Below, in pieces: positions 3,598-16,000 of a stretch of DNA of 25,830 bases (its first letter is position 1; the number at the start of each line of letters is the position of its first letter). Origin of the DNA: a virus; the IMG/VR virus record IMGVR_UViG_3300035070_001960, positions 1-25,830 of that record; one strand, 5' to 3'. The notes under the pieces were generated by a model. The model was not told where the DNA came from. It made no database searches and saw only the letters and a program-made list of their open reading frames with translations. The position numbers and the translations under genes were made by a program.

Positions 3598-6066
3598 TTA
3601 TGTGGCCAAAGCTAGAACACGAAGATTTTTAATTAATGGTGCAGCAGTTTGATTTGTTGCCCTCATAACAATTTTAATCTGAAAAGAACTAAAATCTTCT
3701 AGAGGAGAACCAATACCATCATCTTTCACACCAGCAGTGTATTCATGTTCAATATAATCATCAATATATGTCGAAGGTCGAGTTATGACATCTGGCCCAC
3801 CAGACCCAGTGACAGTTCCATCGTCGTTAAAAAATTTGAAACCTATCTCTTCAAATTTAGTTTCATCATCAACCCGTAGGGTTTTAAACAACAATTTAAT
3901 ATCTGCTTCGGGAAACCGTCGAGCATCTAAAATAACTCTTAGAGAAGTTGCAGGAGTTTCTAGATCAATTTTCTTAGTGAGATAAATTGCTGAATGATTA
4001 TCACCCTCCGGTTCTGTCATTGCTTTGTATAAAGATGTAGGATATACATCTGATGAGGAATCAATTTGATTTATCTGGTTTGATACAGCAATCATCGACA
4101 TCCTCTGCAAGTCAAGTACAGGAGATAGTGAATCAGTTTCTGAAGTTAGAGTTATTGGAACACTCAAAGATTTTGTACCAGACATTTCATTTGTTTCATT
4201 AATACCAGACGCAACCAAATTATTACTTGTCCAATAATAGTTGTCACCAATTGGAACAACCCTACCATTTGTCGATTTTGTAAATGAAGTCTCAGAACCA
4301 CTTGGACTTGTTCCAGAAGTTGTCAACATTGTCGTCTCAATTTTAGTTTTTGACGGAACTAAAGTGCCCGCAATAAAAGTAGAAACATCATATTGTGCAT
4401 TTTCAGTTGCGGTAGCTACATTTCCACCGAAAGTGGACGTACCACCCTCGCCATCAACCACAGGGGTAGTTCCAAGAGTAATTGTATAACTATTTTGTTC
4501 AATATTACCAATTGCAGTGTGTGTTTTATTGATATCATACAACGGAACCTTATGGATTTGATACAATTCTACAGTTGCGCCATCCGCATGAGATGTAGCA
4601 GTTGTACTATTTGCGCCCCGTGTTGCACTAGTGATACCTGTTCCAGAAATATTAGTATAACTAATAATCTCATCATCAATTTTAATATAGTACACGTTGG
4701 ATGCATCTCTAGAATACTTACCACTAGTGTCATCAAAGTTTGTTCCACTCGTAAGGGTAATCGATGTTGCGGTGCTAGAAATTGTACCATTAAGTGTTGT
4801 TGATGCACCAGACTTAACTTCATCAATAGTGACGTTATTTGCAGTAGAATACATACCATGACCAGCATGATTAATTTTTAATGTTGTACTATTGTCTGTC
4901 ATCTCTAAAGGATTTGCATTAAGGGTTTTTACAGGAAGTGTTTTATTTTGTAACGTAACTAAACCAGCAGCATTCGTATCAAACTTAGCTCTCTTGAGAG
5001 AAAATTTCATGTCTTGTGTGGGCGATGGAACCCATGTGCTATTATTTGAACTCTTAAAAAGAACACCAACGTGAGGTTGGTCTGTAATTTCATTACCAGA
5101 AGTATCTTGTGTTCCAAGATCAGCAATCCACACTTTATATTCTGGAGTATTAGCTAATAGACAAATTGAATATTCTGTTCCGCCCTGCACATAAACGGGA
5201 GAGTCAAATGTAAAGGTAGTTGCAGTATTTCCATCTGTAGATGTTGTAACCTCTGAAGATTGTAATGTTTTTCTACCAAATGGAAGAATTTTTGGTCCGG
5301 GCACTCCATTAATTACATTACGAATTTCCATTGTCACAGGATATGTATTATCCTTTGCAAAAAAGAATACATCACAAGAAGTTACAAATGAACCACTAAC
5401 ATTATCGTTTTGAACATCAGTATCCAAAACAATAAAAGTCTGAGCCAATGGGTCCATACGAGGGGGAGTGTATTCGGACCCAACAATAACTTCACCCTCT
5501 TCAAAAAGGTCTGTTGTACTTACGATTGCATTTCTTGTTGCAATAATAGTTTCTTGTTGTGTATCTAATATACCTCTAGCAGAATAAATTGCTTCTGCGT
5601 AAGTTTCTCTTGCAACAATTTCATTTGCGCCGTCACCAACTTGTTTGTTATTTGGGTCTGCTGTTATTACAAAATCAATATCACCAGTTGCAAACTTAGG
5701 ATTGCCAGCGGCTCTTGGATTGGGAATAGTAAAGGTTCCTTCACAATTACCAACACCATCAGAAATTAATGTACTACCAGCAACAGGGGTTTCAACATCA
5801 GAGAAATTTGAGAAAGCAGTTCCAACAGCACCACTAGCGCCCGGTGTCACATACTTATTGACCAATTGTTTATCAAAAAACACATACAGTTTTGTAAATG
5901 GTTTTAAACTTTTAGCTTCGAAGGAAATTGTTTTTGAACGAGCATATGGAATAGCAGTTTTAGCAATAGACCTAAACCCATCACTAGAATACTCAATGTC
6001 CTCAAACACCTCAGTGAGAACACCAGTTCTAGTTTGTTGCGTTGCGTTGTAAGTTCTAACTACCAT
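3598..6066 (-). CDS. C-terminal part of the DUF4815-type giant structural protein, as a separate gene
   Basis: 822 aa. The first ~180 residues (RTGVLTEV, YARSKTISF, KPFTKLYVFFD, LISDGVGNCEGTFTIPNP, ARGILDTQQETIIATRNA) and the DPLAQTF motif at residues 205-211 resemble, from memory, the part that follows the DUF4815 region within single-chain structural proteins of T4-like cyanophages. Here it is its own gene. A middle segment (IKIDDEIISYTNI, then ATRGANSTTATSHADGA) is a common phage beta-sandwich module. The C-terminal ~120 residues (RVILDARRFPEADIKLLFK) are of virion type. The start is ATG at 6066, overlapping the upstream stop as TAATG, with AGGAG at 6076-6080 nine bases upstream. It probably works with the 1461-aa protein as one unit in the baseplate or tail periphery. 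Confidence 0.82.
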   Translation of the reverse strand: MVVRTYNATQQTRTGVLTEVFEDIEYSSDGFRSIAKTAIPYARSKTISFEAKSLKPFTKLYVFFDKQLVNKYVTPGASGAVGTAFSNFSDVETPVAGSTLISDGVGNCEGTFTIPNPRAAGNPKFATGDIDFVITADPNNKQVGDGANEIVARETYAEAIYSARGILDTQQETIIATRNAIVSTTDLFEEGEVIVGSEYTPPRMDPLAQTFIVLDTDVQNDNVSGSFVTSCDVFFFAKDNTYPVTMEIRNVINGVPGPKILPFGRKTLQSSEVTTSTDGNTATTFTFDSPVYVQGGTEYSICLLANTPEYKVWIADLGTQDTSGNEITDQPHVGVLFKSSNNSTWVPSPTQDMKFSLKRAKFDTNAAGLVTLQNKTLPVKTLNANPLEMTDNSTTLKINHAGHGMYSTANNVTIDEVKSGASTTLNGTISSTATSITLTSGTNFDDTSGKYSRDASNVYYIKIDDEIISYTNISGTGITSATRGANSTTATSHADGATVELYQIHKVPLYDINKTHTAIGNIEQNSYTITLGTTPVVDGEGGTSTFGGNVATATENAQYDVSTFIAGTLVPSKTKIETTMLTTSGTSPSGSETSFTKSTNGRVVPIGDNYYWTSNNLVASGINETNEMSGTKSLSVPITLTSETDSLSPVLDLQRMSMIAVSNQINQIDSSSDVYPTSLYKAMTEPEGDNHSAIYLTKKIDLETPATSLRVILDARRFPEADIKLLFKTLRVDDETKFEEIGFKFFNDDGTVTGSGGPDVITRPSTYIDDYIEHEYTAGVKDDGIGSPLEDFSSFQIKIVMRATNQTAAPLIKNLRVLALAT

Positions 6067-9000
6067 TATGCAGCGCTCCTATCTTCTTGTTGGAGAAATA
6101 ATTTGTATCTACCATGCACGGTATATAAATTTTCATTACAATATACATTATAATCATCTGATTGGGTAACAATACTTACTGTTTTCGTAGTTTTTGAAAT
6201 ATATTGTTTAGTATCAACTCGAATTCCATTTATATCATCACCAATAAGTAGGTCTTCTGTTCTCTTCCATACACCATTAGTTAATATGGGATGATCGTTG
6301 GTAATTTCTAATTCACCGTTAATAATATAATAGCCTTCTCTCATATGATTAAATATGAGTTCTTGAATTATGGTTGATCCACTATTATTCATAATCTTAT
6401 CACCAAGTTTCAATTTATTAACATTAATCAAAATATTATTTTCTAACATAACTTTCATATTATAAGTCAAGCAGACGTTATCATCCATGCCATCGCCCCA
6501 ATCGCCGTCCCAATCGTCGAAACCGAATTGCTCGGCCTGCGCCGGTACTCCATCATCTCTCTGAACAGTTCCAGACCAAGTTGTTTGCCAAGAGTTCCAA
6601 ACAGTACCCATATTATTACCAATAGCAGCAACAGTTGCATCATAGTTACCCTCACGGTTAATAATCAACTGGGGAGCAATTTCTGTTTCCATCCAGTTAT
6701 CCTGTGTTGGGTCTATGGCCAGTACACCTTTCCATGTCGCAGTCATGAATGGTGCAACTCTTTCAACAGTACTAGCAAACGGTTGTTCTGTTAATACTAC
6801 CTCTGTATATGGGAGAGTTATAAGATCACCTGTCTTCTGATAACCAGCAGAAGTTCTTGCAGAATCAGTCGAAACATTTTCTTCTAAATCGACGGATTTA
6901 GAAACATGAATTGGCCGCAAAGTTCCTTGCATAAAATCCATAGAGTTTTTATAATCTCTGTGGAAGGCATCACCAACTTTATGACCTTGGAAATTATCAA
7001 CAACAATTCCTGACTTAAATCTACTCAATCCGTTAGCATCTAACGTCTCAAAATTTAAAGCATCCTTTTCCAATAAATTTAGAGTTGTCATTCTTTCAAC
7101 ATTACTAAGTCGGCGGTTAAGTTTACCAATATCTTTCATGGTAAATCTTTGATTTCTTGTTCTTTCAATAGTTACATCTTCCGGCCTACGAGTAAATGGC
7201 GGAATATCTAAATCAGCAAGTTTCACAGAATTCGATGGAATATCAGGTTTTACTGGCGTAGTTGATGATGATCCTTCAATAATACTGATTGTTCCAGTGT
7301 CATCAATTACAACTACGTCTTTCCTTCCAAGATAATGCTCAAAGTCTGATTGAATATTAGAACCGGGCTTGACAAAATCAGAAATTGATGCACTAGCGCC
7401 ATCATATTGTCTAGAGTAGAAGTCAAAAGAGTTTCCTGTAATTTCATCAATAACCCCTAGTGTTCTTGATGTACCAGCAATATCTTCAACCTTTGGCCTA
7501 AAATCATATGAATCGATTAATGGAGGTTTAATATCTTCATAGTCCATTTGATTAGCAATATCAACATAAGAGTCAACTGTAAACATGTCTCCCGTACCAT
7601 GATCAAAATAATCATATATAATGAGCAATCTTCCTGTGGGTGCGGGTTCACCACCTTTTCTTATAATTCTAGAAATATCATAGAAATTATTACGATAACC
7701 GGAATCGAAAGTATATTTAGTAATAATATTCACACTACCATCTGTAAGAGTTCCGACAGTAGCAGTTGCACCGGAGCTTTCACCAGTGATTGTTTCCCCC
7801 GATACAAAGGAAATTGAATTAGATGCGGATGGAAGAACATAACTCATCGGAGATGTAATATCAACAATTCTTGCAGTTGCGCCACTTGTCGCACCAGTGA
7901 TTTTTTCACCTCTGGTAAATGTTCCTGCTTGATTAGTTAGAGTAAATTCTGGAGCAACTGCATCCGTGCTTGCTTCCTCTGAGTCAAAAACTGCAACGAC
8001 ATTAAACACATCCCCACGGCCAAGGGAAATAATCTCGTCTTTTGGACGAGTTCCATAGGCATCTGTTGTTCCAGAAGTTACTTTTAGTTGTTTCATAAGA
8101 TTAGTAGTTTTAGTCTTTGATTGAACAGAAGTTTTAAGAATTGTCGCAGTAAGTTTTATTTTTGCTGCGCTTCCCAAGATGGTTGCATCTGTAATAGTAA
8201 GAGTTGCTGTTCCACCACCACTAATTTTACCAGAGATACTAACGAGATCACCTTGTTCTCCCGTTCCGCCACCAGCAGTAAGAATAGATAATGTATAATC
8301 TGATTCACTGTGAGATAAAAATGTTTCATTTGTACCCGCATTAAAGGTAACAACACCAGAACTGTTTGTAATTCCAATAAACTGTCTTCGAACTGTATAT
8401 TGTGTATCACTTAAACCAGAATTAGTTGCGGTCAGAAGTGTTTTAATATTTCTATTTGGTAATCTAAATATTGATATATTTTTTTCTGTATCTTTTAGTT
8501 TTGCAACCACTGAATTTACAGTATCTTCTTGAATAATTCTACCACTAGAACTTACTTCAGTTTCTAATTCAATAGATGATAATGAATCCTCTTCAAGAGA
8601 AATATCACCAAAAACATTTCTTTCAGTTTCAAGAACAAAATTAGCAGTAAAGTCTTGACCACTATCTGCATCCTCCATATAAACCTGTCTAAAATTACCG
8701 AAAGTAAAAGTTTCTGCTTTGGTTACGGTAATATCAACATTACCAGAATTTTCAATAATACCACCTGTTTCAGCAGAATCGGAAGATGTAATCTTTTCTC
8801 CGGCTCTAAATGCACCAACTACAGAAATTAGATTTACTGAAGTTCCAGAAGTTCCATCTGCATATACATAACCTTTAGCACCAGAAGTCACACCCGTGAT
8901 TAATACACCACCGTTTGTGTGTGTTGCAAGAAGTGTTGGTGATGGAGTGCCACTCAAAGTTAATTTTGTAAATGGACGTATATCAAAAAGATATAATTTA

Positions 9001-10451
9001 TAACGAGAACCAGACGCAAATGCATTCGATCCAGCAGTACCAGAATCAAATTCAATTCCTCTAGCTCGGCCAACACCAATTAAATTACCATTCGCAGAAC
9101 CTCTGGTTGAATTTTCAGCATCATAGAATTGTACAGTTTTGAATGGAGTAGATTCTCCAGATATTTGTGTAATGTCTGGAGTATTGTATACATCTGTAAT
9201 GAGTGCATAATTACCAACGTCAAAAGTTGTAATACCAGCATTAATAGTTTCAAAATCTCTTGCTTTATTAATATCTTTTATGGTGGTTCGAGTCTTATCA
9301 ATTTCATAACCTCTGACGTATATTTTGCCCGGTGATATAGTAAGAGCTAAGAGATCGTTGCTGGCAGTGTTGCCATCAGCAGTTGTCGCACCCACAGTAT
9401 ATCTACCCTGTAGATTATCTTGACCTACACTAACATCTACTGATTCACCTATAGTAAATTCAAATGGTCGAACCGTATAACTTCCAGATTCATCATTAGT
9501 CCTTCTTGCAAATTCATCAGCAAGTTGAGAATATGGCGTCCGACGACCAATTACAGACGATTTACCATCTTTAAGATCAACCAGAGAGACAAAATTATTT
9601 GTGTCCGTTGAAGTTGTAATAGCAGAGAGTGCAACAGAAATACTTAATCTATGTGCGCCTTTTGCAGCATAGTTAGTTGACCCTGTAGAATTATCTAATA
9701 GAGACTCTTCATCTTCTGGTGTAACAATAGTTTCGCTTACTTTAAAACCAACTGTTCCTGTATAAGTTCTATCATAATTATTAAGAACTAGGGTTTCTTC
9801 TAGGTTGTTAACAAAGAAACCACGAATATAGTAAATACCAGATTCTATGTGAAACGCAAGACCTGTTCTTGATGCTGGACCTTCAGAACTTGCAAGTTGT
9901 TCTGGAGTTGATCCTGCAGCAACACTATACACAGAAGTGTATGTTGTAGCAGATGCAACATTTGCAGCATAACTTGATGTTGAATGTGATATTGGAGTAT
10001 TAGCAATAAGATTTTCACCATCAGCAAAAACTGTAGTTTCAAAATCTGTACCAGCCCGCTCATATGAAAGATAAAGGAGTGGTTGATCTGTCGTCGTCGC
10101 AGCTGCGAAACCAATAACCTTTGCGGTAACACCCGTTGTTTCACCTGTAATAGTTGTAGGACTATCTGCGTTATAGTATTGTGAAGGATCAATCTCTAGA
10201 TTATTAAATGTGCTTGCAATTTTCAAACTATAATATTCTTGAGTCGTTCCTTGACCCGGCACAACCACTGCACCCTCACGAAAAATGTGACTTCCATGTG
10301 CTTCAATTTGATGTTGTAATGCACTTTGAAGTTGCGTTAACTCTCTTGCCTGAACTGCATATCCTGGCCGAAAGAGAATTCTGTGATAATTATTCTCTGC
10401 ATTAAAATCATCAAAGTATGGTGCTGCGTTAAGATTAGTTTTTTGTGCCAT
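6066..10451 (-). CDS. DUF4815-type giant structural protein, N-terminal part with C-terminal Hint domain
   Basis: 1461 aa. The N-terminus (PYFDDFNAENNYHRILFRPG, QARELTQLQSAL, HIFREGAVV) is the signature of DUF4815, a family of long virion proteins in marine T4-like phages. Several GExITGxSSGATAxV-like modules follow (e.g. encoded at 7740-7925, 8770-8940 and 10110-10170). The segment DSYDFRPKVEDI, RLSNVERMTTLNLLEKDAL and INREGNYDATVAAI up to TVWNSWQTTWSG is the canonical late part of the family. Where relatives, as I recall them, continue into the RTG...KPFT...FFD region, this chain runs through a D/W/G-rich linker into a Hint domain (residues 1327 to ~1447) and stops 14 residues later. The continuation is the next gene, starting at 6066. 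It begins one base after the gp8 stop. Family assignment is strong; the exact virion position is inferred as baseplate or tail fibre base. Confidence 0.88.
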   Translation of the reverse strand: MAQKTNLNAAPYFDDFNAENNYHRILFRPGYAVQARELTQLQSALQHQIEAHGSHIFREGAVVVPGQGTTQEYYSLKIASTFNNLEIDPSQYYNADSPTTITGETTGVTAKVIGFAAATTTDQPLLYLSYERAGTDFETTVFADGENLIANTPISHSTSSYAANVASATTYTSVYSVAAGSTPEQLASSEGPASRTGLAFHIESGIYYIRGFFVNNLEETLVLNNYDRTYTGTVGFKVSETIVTPEDEESLLDNSTGSTNYAAKGAHRLSISVALSAITTSTDTNNFVSLVDLKDGKSSVIGRRTPYSQLADEFARRTNDESGSYTVRPFEFTIGESVDVSVGQDNLQGRYTVGATTADGNTASNDLLALTISPGKIYVRGYEIDKTRTTIKDINKARDFETINAGITTFDVGNYALITDVYNTPDITQISGESTPFKTVQFYDAENSTRGSANGNLIGVGRARGIEFDSGTAGSNAFASGSRYKLYLFDIRPFTKLTLSGTPSPTLLATHTNGGVLITGVTSGAKGYVYADGTSGTSVNLISVVGAFRAGEKITSSDSAETGGIIENSGNVDITVTKAETFTFGNFRQVYMEDADSGQDFTANFVLETERNVFGDISLEEDSLSSIELETEVSSSGRIIQEDTVNSVVAKLKDTEKNISIFRLPNRNIKTLLTATNSGLSDTQYTVRRQFIGITNSSGVVTFNAGTNETFLSHSESDYTLSILTAGGGTGEQGDLVSISGKISGGGTATLTITDATILGSAAKIKLTATILKTSVQSKTKTTNLMKQLKVTSGTTDAYGTRPKDEIISLGRGDVFNVVAVFDSEEASTDAVAPEFTLTNQAGTFTRGEKITGATSGATARIVDITSPMSYVLPSASNSISFVSGETITGESSGATATVGTLTDGSVNIITKYTFDSGYRNNFYDISRIIRKGGEPAPTGRLLIIYDYFDHGTGDMFTVDSYVDIANQMDYEDIKPPLIDSYDFRPKVEDIAGTSRTLGVIDEITGNSFDFYSRQYDGASASISDFVKPGSNIQSDFEHYLGRKDVVVIDDTGTISIIEGSSSTTPVKPDIPSNSVKLADLDIPPFTRRPEDVTIERTRNQRFTMKDIGKLNRRLSNVERMTTLNLLEKDALNFETLDANGLSRFKSGIVVDNFQGHKVGDAFHRDYKNSMDFMQGTLRPIHVSKSVDLEENVSTDSARTSAGYQKTGDLITLPYTEVVLTEQPFASTVERVAPFMTATWKGVLAIDPTQDNWMETEIAPQLIINREGNYDATVAAIGNNMGTVWNSWQTTWSGTVQRDDGVPAQAEQFGFDDWDGDWGDGMDDNVCLTYNMKVMLENNILINVNKLKLGDKIMNNSGSTIIQELIFNHMREGYYIINGELEITNDHPILTNGVWKRTEDLLIGDDINGIRVDTKQYISKTTKTVSIVTQSDDYNVYCNENLYTVHGRYKLFLQQEDRSAA
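6069..6473 (-). other. Coding region of an intein-like Hint domain, degenerate at its C-terminal junction
   Basis: Residues 1327-1461 of the DUF4815 protein. Block A: Cys1327 in CLTYNMKVML, followed by KLKLGDKI. Block B: EITNDHPILT, with T1384 and H1387 forming TxxH. Block F/G-like end: DDYNVYCNENLYTVHG, with penultimate-type His1446 but Gly1447 in place of the intein Asn. At ~120 residues there is no room for a homing endonuclease. Known Hint chemistry predicts N-S acyl shift at Cys1327, but Asn cyclisation is not possible. GC is about 28% by hand count over these bases, against about 53% over 6474-6600. A 14-residue tail (RYKLFLQQEDRSAA) follows the His-Gly. It could be a decayed intein, a bacterial-intein-like or Hedgehog-type cleaving domain, or a structural Hint. 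Confidence 0.8.
6076..6080 (-). promoter_or_regulatory. Ribosome binding site for the 822-aa gene, inside the Hint tail
   Basis: AGGAG on the minus strand, nine bases before ATG 6066, lies within the last codons of the upstream gene (the Asp-Arg-Ser of its C-terminus). It supports independent or termination-coupled translation of the 822-aa part rather than a sequencing frameshift. Confidence 0.75.
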
Positions 10452-12016: not shown

Positions 12017-13006
12017 TTATGCACCCGCACCATGAACAGTTTTCAGTGTAGAACCAGCTGAGTTTTTAATCAAAAGAGTTGATAGAGTTTTTAATTCTGC
12101 TGAACCTACAGCGTCATTGGCGATATGCTCTTCATCAATAGAATCTGCTGCATAATGTTCAGAGTTAATAGTATCATCAGCAATCTTTGCACCAGTTATT
12201 GCGTCAGCAGCAATATTAGCAGTCTGTACCCAAACACCAGTGAGAGTTCCACCAGCAGCACTTGTTGCAAGCTTCGCACTGTTGTCGTAGTAAAGGGTGA
12301 CAGCACCATCTGGAACAGCTACAATAGAGGACTCTCCAGTTTTTGCTTGGAAATTTAAGTTACCTGTAGAATTTTGGATGTAACTATTACTACTATCGTG
12401 ATGAATCTGAAGGTCAGACCCAGCGCCAAACATTGCCTTAGCATTGTCGGGGAAAAGAATGTCATCCGTACCAGTAGGAACTGTAAATACTGTGGCGTCA
12501 GCATCGTTCTTTAAAGTTATATCTGATGTGCTGCCTTGTCCTGTTAGGATTAAACCCTCGGCAGATGTGTAACCAATTGCAGCATTATCACCCGCCGCAG
12601 TGTCACCTGTTGCCTCAAGAGTAGCACCAGTGATGGTGGTTGTTGCGGTGATCGCACCAGTTACATCTAAACCAGAACTGTCGATATCGACTCGTTTGGT
12701 TCCCCCAGTAGTGACGTTGACTGTATCAGCAGCACCAAAGTAAATACCTGTATTTGTGTCGCCCGTATTTGTAATTGAAGGAGCAGAATTACTACCGTCT
12801 GCAAATGATGCAACACCAGTGATTGTTGGCCCAGCAAGAGTAACAACAGAAGATGTGGCACTGATACCAGACGTTAGTGCAGAACCCGTACCCAACAGAG
12901 TATAAATTTCAACAAAGTTATCATTTATTTTGTCACCACCACCACGAATAGTATCGCCGGTGCCATCCCCTGCGGTAGTACCTAATCCTATTGATTGATA
13001 TGCCAT
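12017..13006 (-). CDS. Fibre-like virion protein with shared N-terminal module
   Basis: 329 aa. Residues 1 to ~65 (GDGTGDTIRGGGDKINDNF, EIYTLLG, SGISATSSVVTLAGPTITGV) are paralogous to the N-terminus of the left-edge fibre gene. Further motifs are TNTGIYFGAAD, KRVDIDSSGLDVTG, ADATVFTVPTGTDD, FGAGSDLQIHHDSSNSYIQN and VTLYYDNSAKLAT, a known marine-phage fibre pattern. The C-terminal ~60 residues carry INSEHYAADSIDEEHIANDA, then SAELKTLSTLLIKNSAG. I infer a short tail fibre or baseplate-bound spike subunit. ATG 13006 has AAGGAAG just upstream and a late promoter box at 13027-13034, so it can be made apart from gp7. It lies between gp7-like and gp8 genes, an insertion into the usual wedge gene order. 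Confidence 0.8.
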   Translation of the reverse strand: MAYQSIGLGTTAGDGTGDTIRGGGDKINDNFVEIYTLLGTGSALTSGISATSSVVTLAGPTITGVASFADGSNSAPSITNTGDTNTGIYFGAADTVNVTTGGTKRVDIDSSGLDVTGAITATTTITGATLEATGDTAAGDNAAIGYTSAEGLILTGQGSTSDITLKNDADATVFTVPTGTDDILFPDNAKAMFGAGSDLQIHHDSSNSYIQNSTGNLNFQAKTGESSIVAVPDGAVTLYYDNSAKLATSAAGGTLTGVWVQTANIAADAITGAKIADDTINSEHYAADSIDEEHIANDAVGSAELKTLSTLLIKNSAGSTLKTVHGAGA

Positions 13007-13026
13007 TATTCCGTCTTCCTTTGTTA

Positions 13027-13034
13027 TATTTATA
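13027..13034 (-). promoter_or_regulatory. T4-type late promoter box upstream of the 329-aa fibre gene
   Basis: Exact TATAAATA on the minus strand, 20 bases before ATG 13006. It overlaps the last codons and stop of the gp7-like gene. Confidence 0.78.
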
Positions 13035-16000
13035 CTTCTTCTATATCAAAATTATTAAATACATTATCAAATGTAGTTAATATCCCATCAAATCCAAATT
13101 CAAGGACCGTTGTTTTGTCGTATAAATCTAGATCAGTTCCATCCTCAAGTAAAAATTCGAACCCAGTAGATTCATCATCACTTTCTAATGTAATATGTCC
13201 AGATATATTACCCGTATCATCAAGAGAAGATTCAAGCAATATGTTTCCACCGGATTCAAGTATTAATTCAGTGTTACCCGAATGATCTATAAGTAGATTA
13301 TCGATATCCTCTGAAGATATTGTTCCTCTAGAACTTACAAATATATCTGATGGAATAGTAAATGGTTCAAGTATAGTATCACCAGCCATATCAAATGGAT
13401 TTGCACCAACATTTATAGAATCTTCTAAAGCAATGAAAGTCCTTTCAAGTCTCAGTTTTTCACCAACACCAAACCCAGTAGAATCTTCCAAAAGAATATC
13501 GTCACCAAATGTTCCTGTAACAGTTGATCCATCCTCTAGTTTAAATGTTCCAATTTCTTGACCCTCAAGAATAATACCATCAAAAGAATTTTCATTAGAA
13601 ATATTAACTAAAGAATCACGGGTAAAGTTATTGGTAGAATATCCAAGTGATGTATAGGTATCTTTCGTTACACTCTGATTTATATTAACATCACTGCCAG
13701 ATTCCAACAAAATGTGATCACCAAGATCAGACGCACTGCTGTCAGTTTGAGTCAGTAATAAACGACTACCAAGTTGAGAGGAACCACTTTCCAATGCAAT
13801 ACCGTCACCACTAATACCCTCATAAGTTTTAGTTGCAAGGAATGATAGACCATTAGCAGTATTGTGTGTTTTATTTAACGTAACATCAACGTGCGTTGTA
13901 TAAGAAGATCGAACATGAACATCTCTATCGTACTGAGATATACCTTCAATAACAAAGATATCGGACTCAACTTCACTAAGCAAATTATCTATTATTGTAG
14001 AGTCTTCACCAGAAAGGAATGATATACCATCTTGAAGACTATCCTCAAGTTCGAATGACAAATCATCTTCTGTAACAATATCAAAACCAGCATCGCCCTG
14101 AGATGTTTGAAGATGTCCATCTTCAGTTCCATCAAGAACAAGGTTGTTCGATATCGCTTCAGCACTTTCTGATACGATACGATCTAAATCCTCAGTTAAC
14201 AACAAACCAGACTCGCCAGCATCAATTCCATAAGATATTTCTATTGCTTCAAAATCAATATAAGCATTTTCTGGTGTTTCTAATCGTATAACACCTACAC
14301 CAAGTTCTTCCTCAATTTCAAATTGATCATCAGAAGTTTCTTGAATAGAAGTTTCTAATAATAGGACAGTCTCTTCTTCAGTTGTAAAACCAAGACGGCG
14401 CTCAATAGGAGCAGCAAATATTGAGAAGAATGTAGTACTAAGAATAGCATCGAAGATCGCACCACTACGGTCAGACTCGCCAATTTCCTGCGCTTCTCCA
14501 ATTTGTAATTTAGCAGAAACAAAAGAAGTGGTAATAGCCTTTGAAAAAACATTAAATCCGGCTGGGTGAATTGATTTCTTCAACTCATTTAAATATGAAC
14601 TACCACCAGATGATGACTGAATTTCATATGAAAAATCTTGATAATAATAAGAATCTTGAATTCTTATTAAAGCTTCACCAATTAAATTTTCAATACCACC
14701 AAATGTTCCTGTTTTTTCAGCGGACGTACCCAAACTAAATTTTGCTTTTGCAATATCTGCATGAACAATTGTTGCAGACCCGTCCACAGTTGATATAGAT
14801 GTTGTTCCAGCAGAAAAATCAATTCCCGTATCCTCAAATAAAACTTTTTCGTTTATATGAAGAGTATCTGCATTTGTTCCATCCAATAACAAGTTAGTAA
14901 ATGGGTCATCATTTTCGTATAAAAGTTTTTCATTAACGCTATCAGTTATACCAGATTCTAAAACAATATTGTTAGTGGGATCACCAACACCGTTTGCATC
15001 TGTAGAATTAGGAATAATCTTATCACCAGAATTTGCACCAAGAGTATCTGTAGCATTAAGAACTAAATTATCTTCATATTCTATATCAGAATCAAGAACT
15101 ATAAAGGCGTTTTCATTTGATTTGAGCGGAGGAACCAATGAATCTTCCAACAGGAATTTTATTTGCCTCGGCGCTGGCAAATCATCTGGATGTTCCATAA
15201 TGATTTGACCAAAACCATCCTCCAAATCTATAAACCCAGATGTTATGCTTGTAGAATCTATTAAAAGTCTATAGCCATCTTCAGCAACTAAATTTTCCCC
15301 ATAAACAAGATTAGCATCCAAAATAATATTTTCATTAACATACTCAGATGTTGCAAGAGAGTCTTCTAGAAGTACACCCTCATTGTAACTGCCTTCTCCA
15401 AACGATTCACCTTGAATACCAACTGTGTCTTCAATTGAAACTTCTAGAAGTTGAGTTGCAGAGTCAAATGATCGAACTGTTCCTGTATGTGATGTTAATG
15501 CTGCGCCCGGAGTAAAAACTCCTGTTATATCTTTTACAACGAAATTTCCACGAAATTCTAATGTAGGTTCTTCAGTATAATTGAAGCCGGGATTAGTAAC
15601 ATTGACACTAGAAATTTTTCCAATATCTGTTGTAGTTGCATAAACCTTTGTGTTTGCACCATACTGACTTCTAACTGTAACAGTAGGTAAAAGTGCATAA
15701 CCTTCTCCCGAATTAGTCACCTGTATTTTTGTAATATCTCCAGCACCAGATTCTAAAATAAACCCCTCATTATCATAACGATTGGTGTCTATAACTATTG
15801 TGTTCGTTGCCAATTCAGTTTCAAATCTATCACCAAGAACTGCTTCTGTGTTGATACCACTAGTATATGATGCAGCATTTCCAGACTCACCATAGAGATG
15901 ATCTGCCCTGTGATTATAGTTACCACCATATAGTGTATATGTTTCGCTATTGTAAGTTGATTGTGCAACAGCTGTTAAAGTTGTAGGAGAATAAAATATT

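Follow-up and report, generated by a model that had tools for sequence, protein, structure and literature searches.

A split DUF4815/VrlC baseplate gene in a marine T4-like phage, with a Hint domain as its probable exchangeable C-terminal cap

Two consecutive genes of a T4-like marine phage raise the question of how a large virion protein comes to be broken at the very place where a Hint domain stands. The genes lie in IMG/VR record IMGVR_UViG_3300035070_001960, a 25.8-kb fragment analysed over positions 1 to 25,830 (hereafter the window), which contains the usual tail and baseplate module. The first gene, P0001 (6066..10451, 1461 residues; all window features located here are on the minus strand), comprises a DUF4815/VrlC body, an acidic linker, a Hint domain and a stop codon, and the second, P0002 (3598..6066, 822 residues), holds the remainder of the DUF4815/VrlC chain. 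A Hint domain is usually taken for an intein, a hedgehog-type ligase or a toxin releaser, and metagenomic reports have described fractured genes with split inteins, in which an essential phage gene is cut and a HINT-fold domain stands at the cut. The original prediction took the two open reading frames (ORFs) for consecutive parts of one protein, divided at the Hint domain in a manner resembling such fractured genes. The comparisons described here uphold the common origin of the two parts and suggest another relation between Hint and break, in which a fissioned baseplate subunit has a reusable C-terminal attachment slot and the window Hint is probably an exchangeable cap.

By sequence comparison, the two window genes encode one fissioned DUF4815/VrlC baseplate subunit, the halves of which tile one ancestral chain. 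The Pfam family DUF4815 (PF16075) is matched by P0001 with 200.7 bits against a cutoff of 30, which places the protein in this family. In a profile search the body of P0001 (residues 1-1299; 6555..10451) covers positions 1-1153 of phrog_358, and P0002 extends the coverage to position 2055 of 2056. In Melnitz, HTVC008M and Mosig, all of them isolates, a single gene spans both halves, and the matched parts are separated by 31-38 residues; ORF65 of phage 812, which is one chain in solved structures (PDB 9EUF and others) and is known from these as a part of the assembled baseplate, likewise matches both halves, P0002 being aligned with its residues 779-947. The protein has been named VrlC, is present in all pelagimyophages compared and has been assigned to the double-layered baseplate (PMC7029224). 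Most of the relatives fetched have an uninterrupted gene, so that the two parts are not always separate genes, and in the window only the linker and the Hint domain stand between them. In one relative (L066, near position 14062) the homology to P0002 switches frame within the C part, which suggests that the L066 sequence contains a frameshift or was misread at this point.

At the junction the N-piece runs from TVWNSWQTTWSG through a stretch of about 30 residues, many of them Asp or Gly, to the Hint domain, which begins at Cys1326, and terminates 14 residues behind it. The acidic Asp/Gly-rich linker preceding the Hint comprises residues 1300-1325 (6477..6554), the Hint core residues 1326-1447 (6111..6476), and the short tail, RYKLFLQQEDRSAA (6069..6110), is modelled with a low predicted local distance difference test score (pLDDT). 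The stop codon of P0001 overlaps the start codon of P0002 in the sequence TAATG (6064..6068), and a Shine-Dalgarno sequence AGGAG (6076..6080) lies 9 nt 5' of the P0002 ATG, within the 3' end of the P0001 gene. The first residues of P0002, MVVRTYNATQQTRTG, correspond to the native linker QRQFNAVRQSRTG of the intact relative L018 and also match the starts of the second pieces in split relatives devoid of a Hint; there is no C-intein fragment at this start, as the original prediction had noticed, but native linker sequence instead. Since contig L005 is 99.7% identical to the window over 9.8 kb, with 2,984 bases identical across the junction, the gene break is not an assembly artefact.

The whole Hint domain is indeed located on the first piece, its HINT fold being complete in an AlphaFold2 model (pLDDT 84.7). 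Comparison of this model with known structures gave 84 chains with Z scores of at least 8, and those listed are of the intein, BIL or hedgehog type; the best matches are the BIL domains 2LWY (C. thermocellum) and 6Y75 (T. thermophila BIL2), with Z scores of about 17, and in the structural alignment model residues 6-126 span inteins from first to last residue. The Vint family (PF14623, cutoff 27) is matched with 31.5 bits by the Hint alone and 26.2 bits within the whole of P0001, over profile positions 1-71 of 166 only. Cys1 (Cys1326, 6474-6476) and the TxxH motif (T1384-x-x-H1387, 6291-6302) are kept and, together with the predicted fold, place the domain in the HINT superfamily. Since inteins reach their last residue at model residue 126 in this alignment, the pair His1446-Gly1447 (6111-6116), followed by Arg1448, stands where inteins have His-Asn; Gly has replaced the terminal Asn, and the domain has neither the end of an intein nor the conserved C-terminal His-Asn of a type A BIL domain. 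With the terminal Asn lost and no Cys, Ser or Thr nucleophile or partner behind it, the Hint is predicted to be unable to splice or to cut at its C-terminal side, and its chemistry would be confined to the N-terminal side, at most as cutting or transfer there.

Relatives of this particular Hint are scarce. None was detected in deposited phages by tblastn, peptide patterns recovered only L005 from IMG/VR, a DNA motif gave only L005 plus two chance matches (L321, L322), and among 50 related records only L005 was positive with the Vint profile. None of five cyanophage VrlC proteins checked carries a Hint, their extra length being located elsewhere. An origin of the Hint from foreign DNA was considered on the basis of its guanine plus cytosine (GC) content, which at 0.28 lies below that of all 511 comparison windows, and was rejected, since GC at third codon positions is normal and amino-acid make-up explains the low value.

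The suggestion that the Hint divides the gene in the window is not supported by comparison with its relatives. Within the window clade most members are cut at the same linker (site 1) with nothing added (L008, L010, L011, L012, L014, L015, L019, L026), and five sequences elsewhere in the family are also cut there (L028, L029, L036, L044, L140). The sequence nearest to the window in the tree, L020/L057, with 98% identity over the part compared, is devoid of a Hint; at site 1 it has a longer linker and then a 113-residue domain starting GGKIICTAMNNMYGFG (referred to as ICTAMN), and two ORFs follow, one desaturase-like and one Asp/Asn-hydroxylase-like. In a blastn comparison of the window with L057, homology ends inside the linker (6538) and restarts one base before the P0002 ATG (6067), and the stretch enclosed (6068..6537) is without homology to L057, whereas its flanks are 96-98% identical; near-constant flanks around a non-homologous stretch indicate that the end cassette has been replaced. 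A third end domain, KVLCGELYRQG (CGELY), with a weak alignment to ICTAMN, occurs in L006 and L007. As judged from these alignments, the C-terminus at site 1 is a slot in which Hint, ICTAMN and CGELY replace one another up to the next start codon. Because the same break lacks a Hint in most clade members and bears other domains in close relatives, it most likely preceded the Hint in the window lineage. Fission also appears to accompany a change of charge at the cut end: the net charge of P0001 residues 1294-1325 is -9 and the ends of split N-pieces are acidic (-3 to -14, with the exception of L140 at +2), in contrast to intact linkers, which in those checked are basic (+2 to +4).

The pattern is repeated at a second position, about 200 residues into P0002 and directly before the sequence DPLAQTF (site 2; P0002 residues 190-205, 5452..5499), which is unbroken in the window and is cut, capped or provided with in-frame Hints in other phages. 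On ORF65 of phage 812, site 1 falls between residues of about 609 and 671, and site 2 at about 788. A survey of other phages for a break at a Hint, proposed with the original prediction, found the arrangement again. In L105, which is cut at site 2, the first piece closes with a linker of Gly, Asp and Ser and then a Hint that belongs to a different subtype and has no His-Asn. The first piece also ends in a Hint or Hint-like domain at this site in L262/L263 and L301/L310/L315 (the Hint-like domain of L263 has a weak Pfam match only), the Hints of the split L301 and L310 retaining the terminal His-Asn. Two tandem Hints in L281 and one in L300 stand in frame at site 2, and end in His-Asn-Lys, either immediately in front of the DP[LI][AS]Q motif or near it. 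ICTAMN occupies site 2 in L162, L165, L184, L186, L191, L198 and L216, with the rest of the protein next where the contig extends. PF16075 confirms the DUF4815 family in the records with a Hint or ICTAMN at site 2, and the Hint loci at this site were obtained by searching with a Hint and not with DUF4815, nine of the 80 loci returned being the DUF4815/VrlC protein. The capped relatives come without exception from metagenomic contigs, which are often fragmentary; in deposited phages the Hints searched gave no match to a recognised DUF4815 gene, matches labelled 'hypothetical' not having been opened. In L263 the first piece, with its Hint cap, is separated from the second by a small ORF (about 4441-4894) that looks by eye like an acetyltransferase.

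End cassettes are also shared with unrelated proteins. Over 480 bases of DNA, the Hint and post-Hint tail of L105 (6205-6744) have 86% identity with L155:4989-5486, where an unrelated protein ends among podovirus-like genes. ICTAMN is a helical C-terminal domain with the motif GGK[IV][IV]CTAMNxxYGFG, the Cys of which is invariant. Preceded by Gly-rich linkers, it stands at the end of many virion-type proteins unrelated to one another (L156-L235, e.g., L156:4001-4339); at least 324 matching stretches occur in IMG/VR, and two records only in deposited phages. No family in Pfam, PHROGs or NCBIfam corresponds to it at the thresholds used. Its predicted model, of five helices, matches no PDB fold, which is not proof of a new fold; the predicted structures of viral proteins gave a single significant match, to a phage protein that is itself uncharacterised.

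Some further features of these chain ends may be recorded. In L057 (about 12356-13929), L054, L013, L158 and L159, where ICTAMN belongs to different virion genes, a fatty-acid-desaturase-like ORF lies immediately or shortly downstream of it, and at DUF4815 site 1 a hydroxylase-like ORF follows, of the Asp/Asn beta-hydroxylase type in L057 and L054. L158:113-1462 presents Hint, Hint and ICTAMN in tandem at one C-terminus, an order that recalls the HINT-plus-effector order of polymorphic toxins. Terminal Hint or Hint-like domains after a poly-Gly linker, with the motif GGGGGC[FL]..GT.[IV].MADG and nothing or a short tail behind, are found on many phage proteins, in L239, L240, L242, L258, L264, L266, L268, L272, L303 and others.

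The explanation considered probable is that of a fissioned baseplate subunit with a reusable C-terminal attachment slot, the window Hint being an exchangeable cap. The two pieces would be translated separately, a reading for which the ribosome-binding site of P0002 counts, and would assemble non-covalently at the old linker, so that the break would tolerate attachments there. The Hint itself may undergo an N-S acyl shift at Val1325-Cys1326, after which hydrolysis may set it free or the N-piece may be transferred to a nucleophile; were the Hint simply to remove itself, the N-piece would terminate in ...GMDDNV, acidic like the ends of most relatives without a Hint. Several observations weigh against this explanation. 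The window Hint is seen in two near-identical contigs only (the window and L005), so that selection on its catalytic residues cannot be judged; the tail of L140 is basic and not acidic; and the intact L017 and L018 fall inside the split clade, which leaves the order of break and rejoining unsure. The tree, moreover, was made from 114 sequences by a quick method and has several long branches, and the minimum numbers of changes counted on it (five each for the site-1 break, the site-2 break and the Hint, six for ICTAMN/CGELY) are accordingly rough. An inert cap is rather improbable, yet deserves serious weight; the Hint would then be displayed or carried as a passenger, would neither cut nor ligate, and would be randomly kept or lost on a tolerant end. 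Loss of the terminal Asn and the presence of an unrelated domain, or of nothing, in its place in close relatives would agree with this; the retention of Cys1 and TxxH, a full fold predicted with confidence and the recurrence of Hints at breaks of the DUF4815/VrlC protein speak against it.

Hedgehog Hint domains transfer their N-part to cholesterol, and by analogy the N-piece could be handed from the thioester at Cys1326 to a nucleophile, which would belong either to another protein of the virion or to the surface of the host. This ligase role is unlikely: the window Hint has, as hedgehog-type domains do, only the residues for an N-terminal acyl shift, and the family is located in the baseplate (PMC7029224), but there is neither a candidate acceptor nor an adduct-recognition region behind the Hint, and relatives do without the domain. 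Still less credence is given to the possibility that the Hint arrived as an in-frame self-cleaving insertion, that the gene was split behind it and that the terminal His-Asn then decayed. Site 2 displays all the stages of such a course, from in-frame domains with His-Asn (L281, L300) through split genes with His-Asn (L301, L310) to a split gene without it (L105); at site 1, in contrast, relatives around the window lacking a Hint are already split and the closest one carries ICTAMN, so this order may be right for site 2 and not for the window locus. That a split intein rejoins the products of a classical fractured gene by trans-splicing is scarcely credible. Although a Hint at a gene break recalls it, and the window, at 25.8 kb, is short enough for a distant partner to be possible, the Hint is complete by fold, P0002 does not start with a C-intein, Gly, with Arg behind it, stands in place of the terminal Asn, and split relatives without a Hint are common; the splicing analogy of the original prediction is not supported, and no split-intein partner was found.

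The locus differs from each of the known systems that it resembles. ORF65 of phage 812 and pelagimyophage VrlC (PMC7029224) are homologous over both window halves; each is one gene and one chain, whereas the window has two genes and an end cassette. Compared with split inteins, the window Hint is complete on the first piece, with no C-intein, terminal Asn or following nucleophile. It shares with the BIL domains 2LWY and 6Y75 the condition of a single Hint without endonuclease, but ends in His-Gly where these have His-Asn, and it terminates a virion-type protein. Fold, Cys1 and TxxH are common to hedgehog and Vint Hints (1AT0, 8R2C; PF14623), as is chemistry expected at the N-terminal side only, but the window Hint lacks a sterol-recognition region and matches the Vint profile over less than half its length. 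Polymorphic toxins likewise have mobile C-terminal cassettes with HINT domains (PMC3482391), to which the tandem of L158 may be compared; no effector domain or immunity gene was recognised behind the window Hint, where only the 14 residues and then the gene for the rest of the baseplate protein follow. In the open literature searched on fractured genes, phage Hint domains, VrlC and DUF4815, nothing was found on a split gene with this Hint arrangement, nor any report of ICTAMN or of Hints in VrlC.

The combination of a gene break with a whole Hint on the first piece is unusual, as was first remarked, and it is recurrent; it may also represent a new manner of processing tail proteins, as the original prediction proposed. 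A bolder reading, regarded as possible though doubtful, is that two linkers of an essential baseplate protein have been turned into exchange slots in marine myophages: with the gene cut at these places, the new chain end would receive mobile cassettes, either Hints or a helical domain that is undescribed, in some cases together with enzyme genes. Phages would exchange these cassettes with one another, virion proteins of podovirus-like phages being among the partners, and the Hints would trim the chain end or transfer it covalently during assembly or adsorption. ICTAMN emerges as a common and unannotated C-terminal domain on virion-type proteins of marine phages. Hints recur at breaks of a core virion protein gene, in the window without the means of splicing, and an unrelated fold is found in the same slot, which raises the question of the role of a terminal Hint on the virion, as well as that of how a core subunit of the baseplate can bear being split repeatedly, at two positions that can be mapped on phage 812 ORF65.
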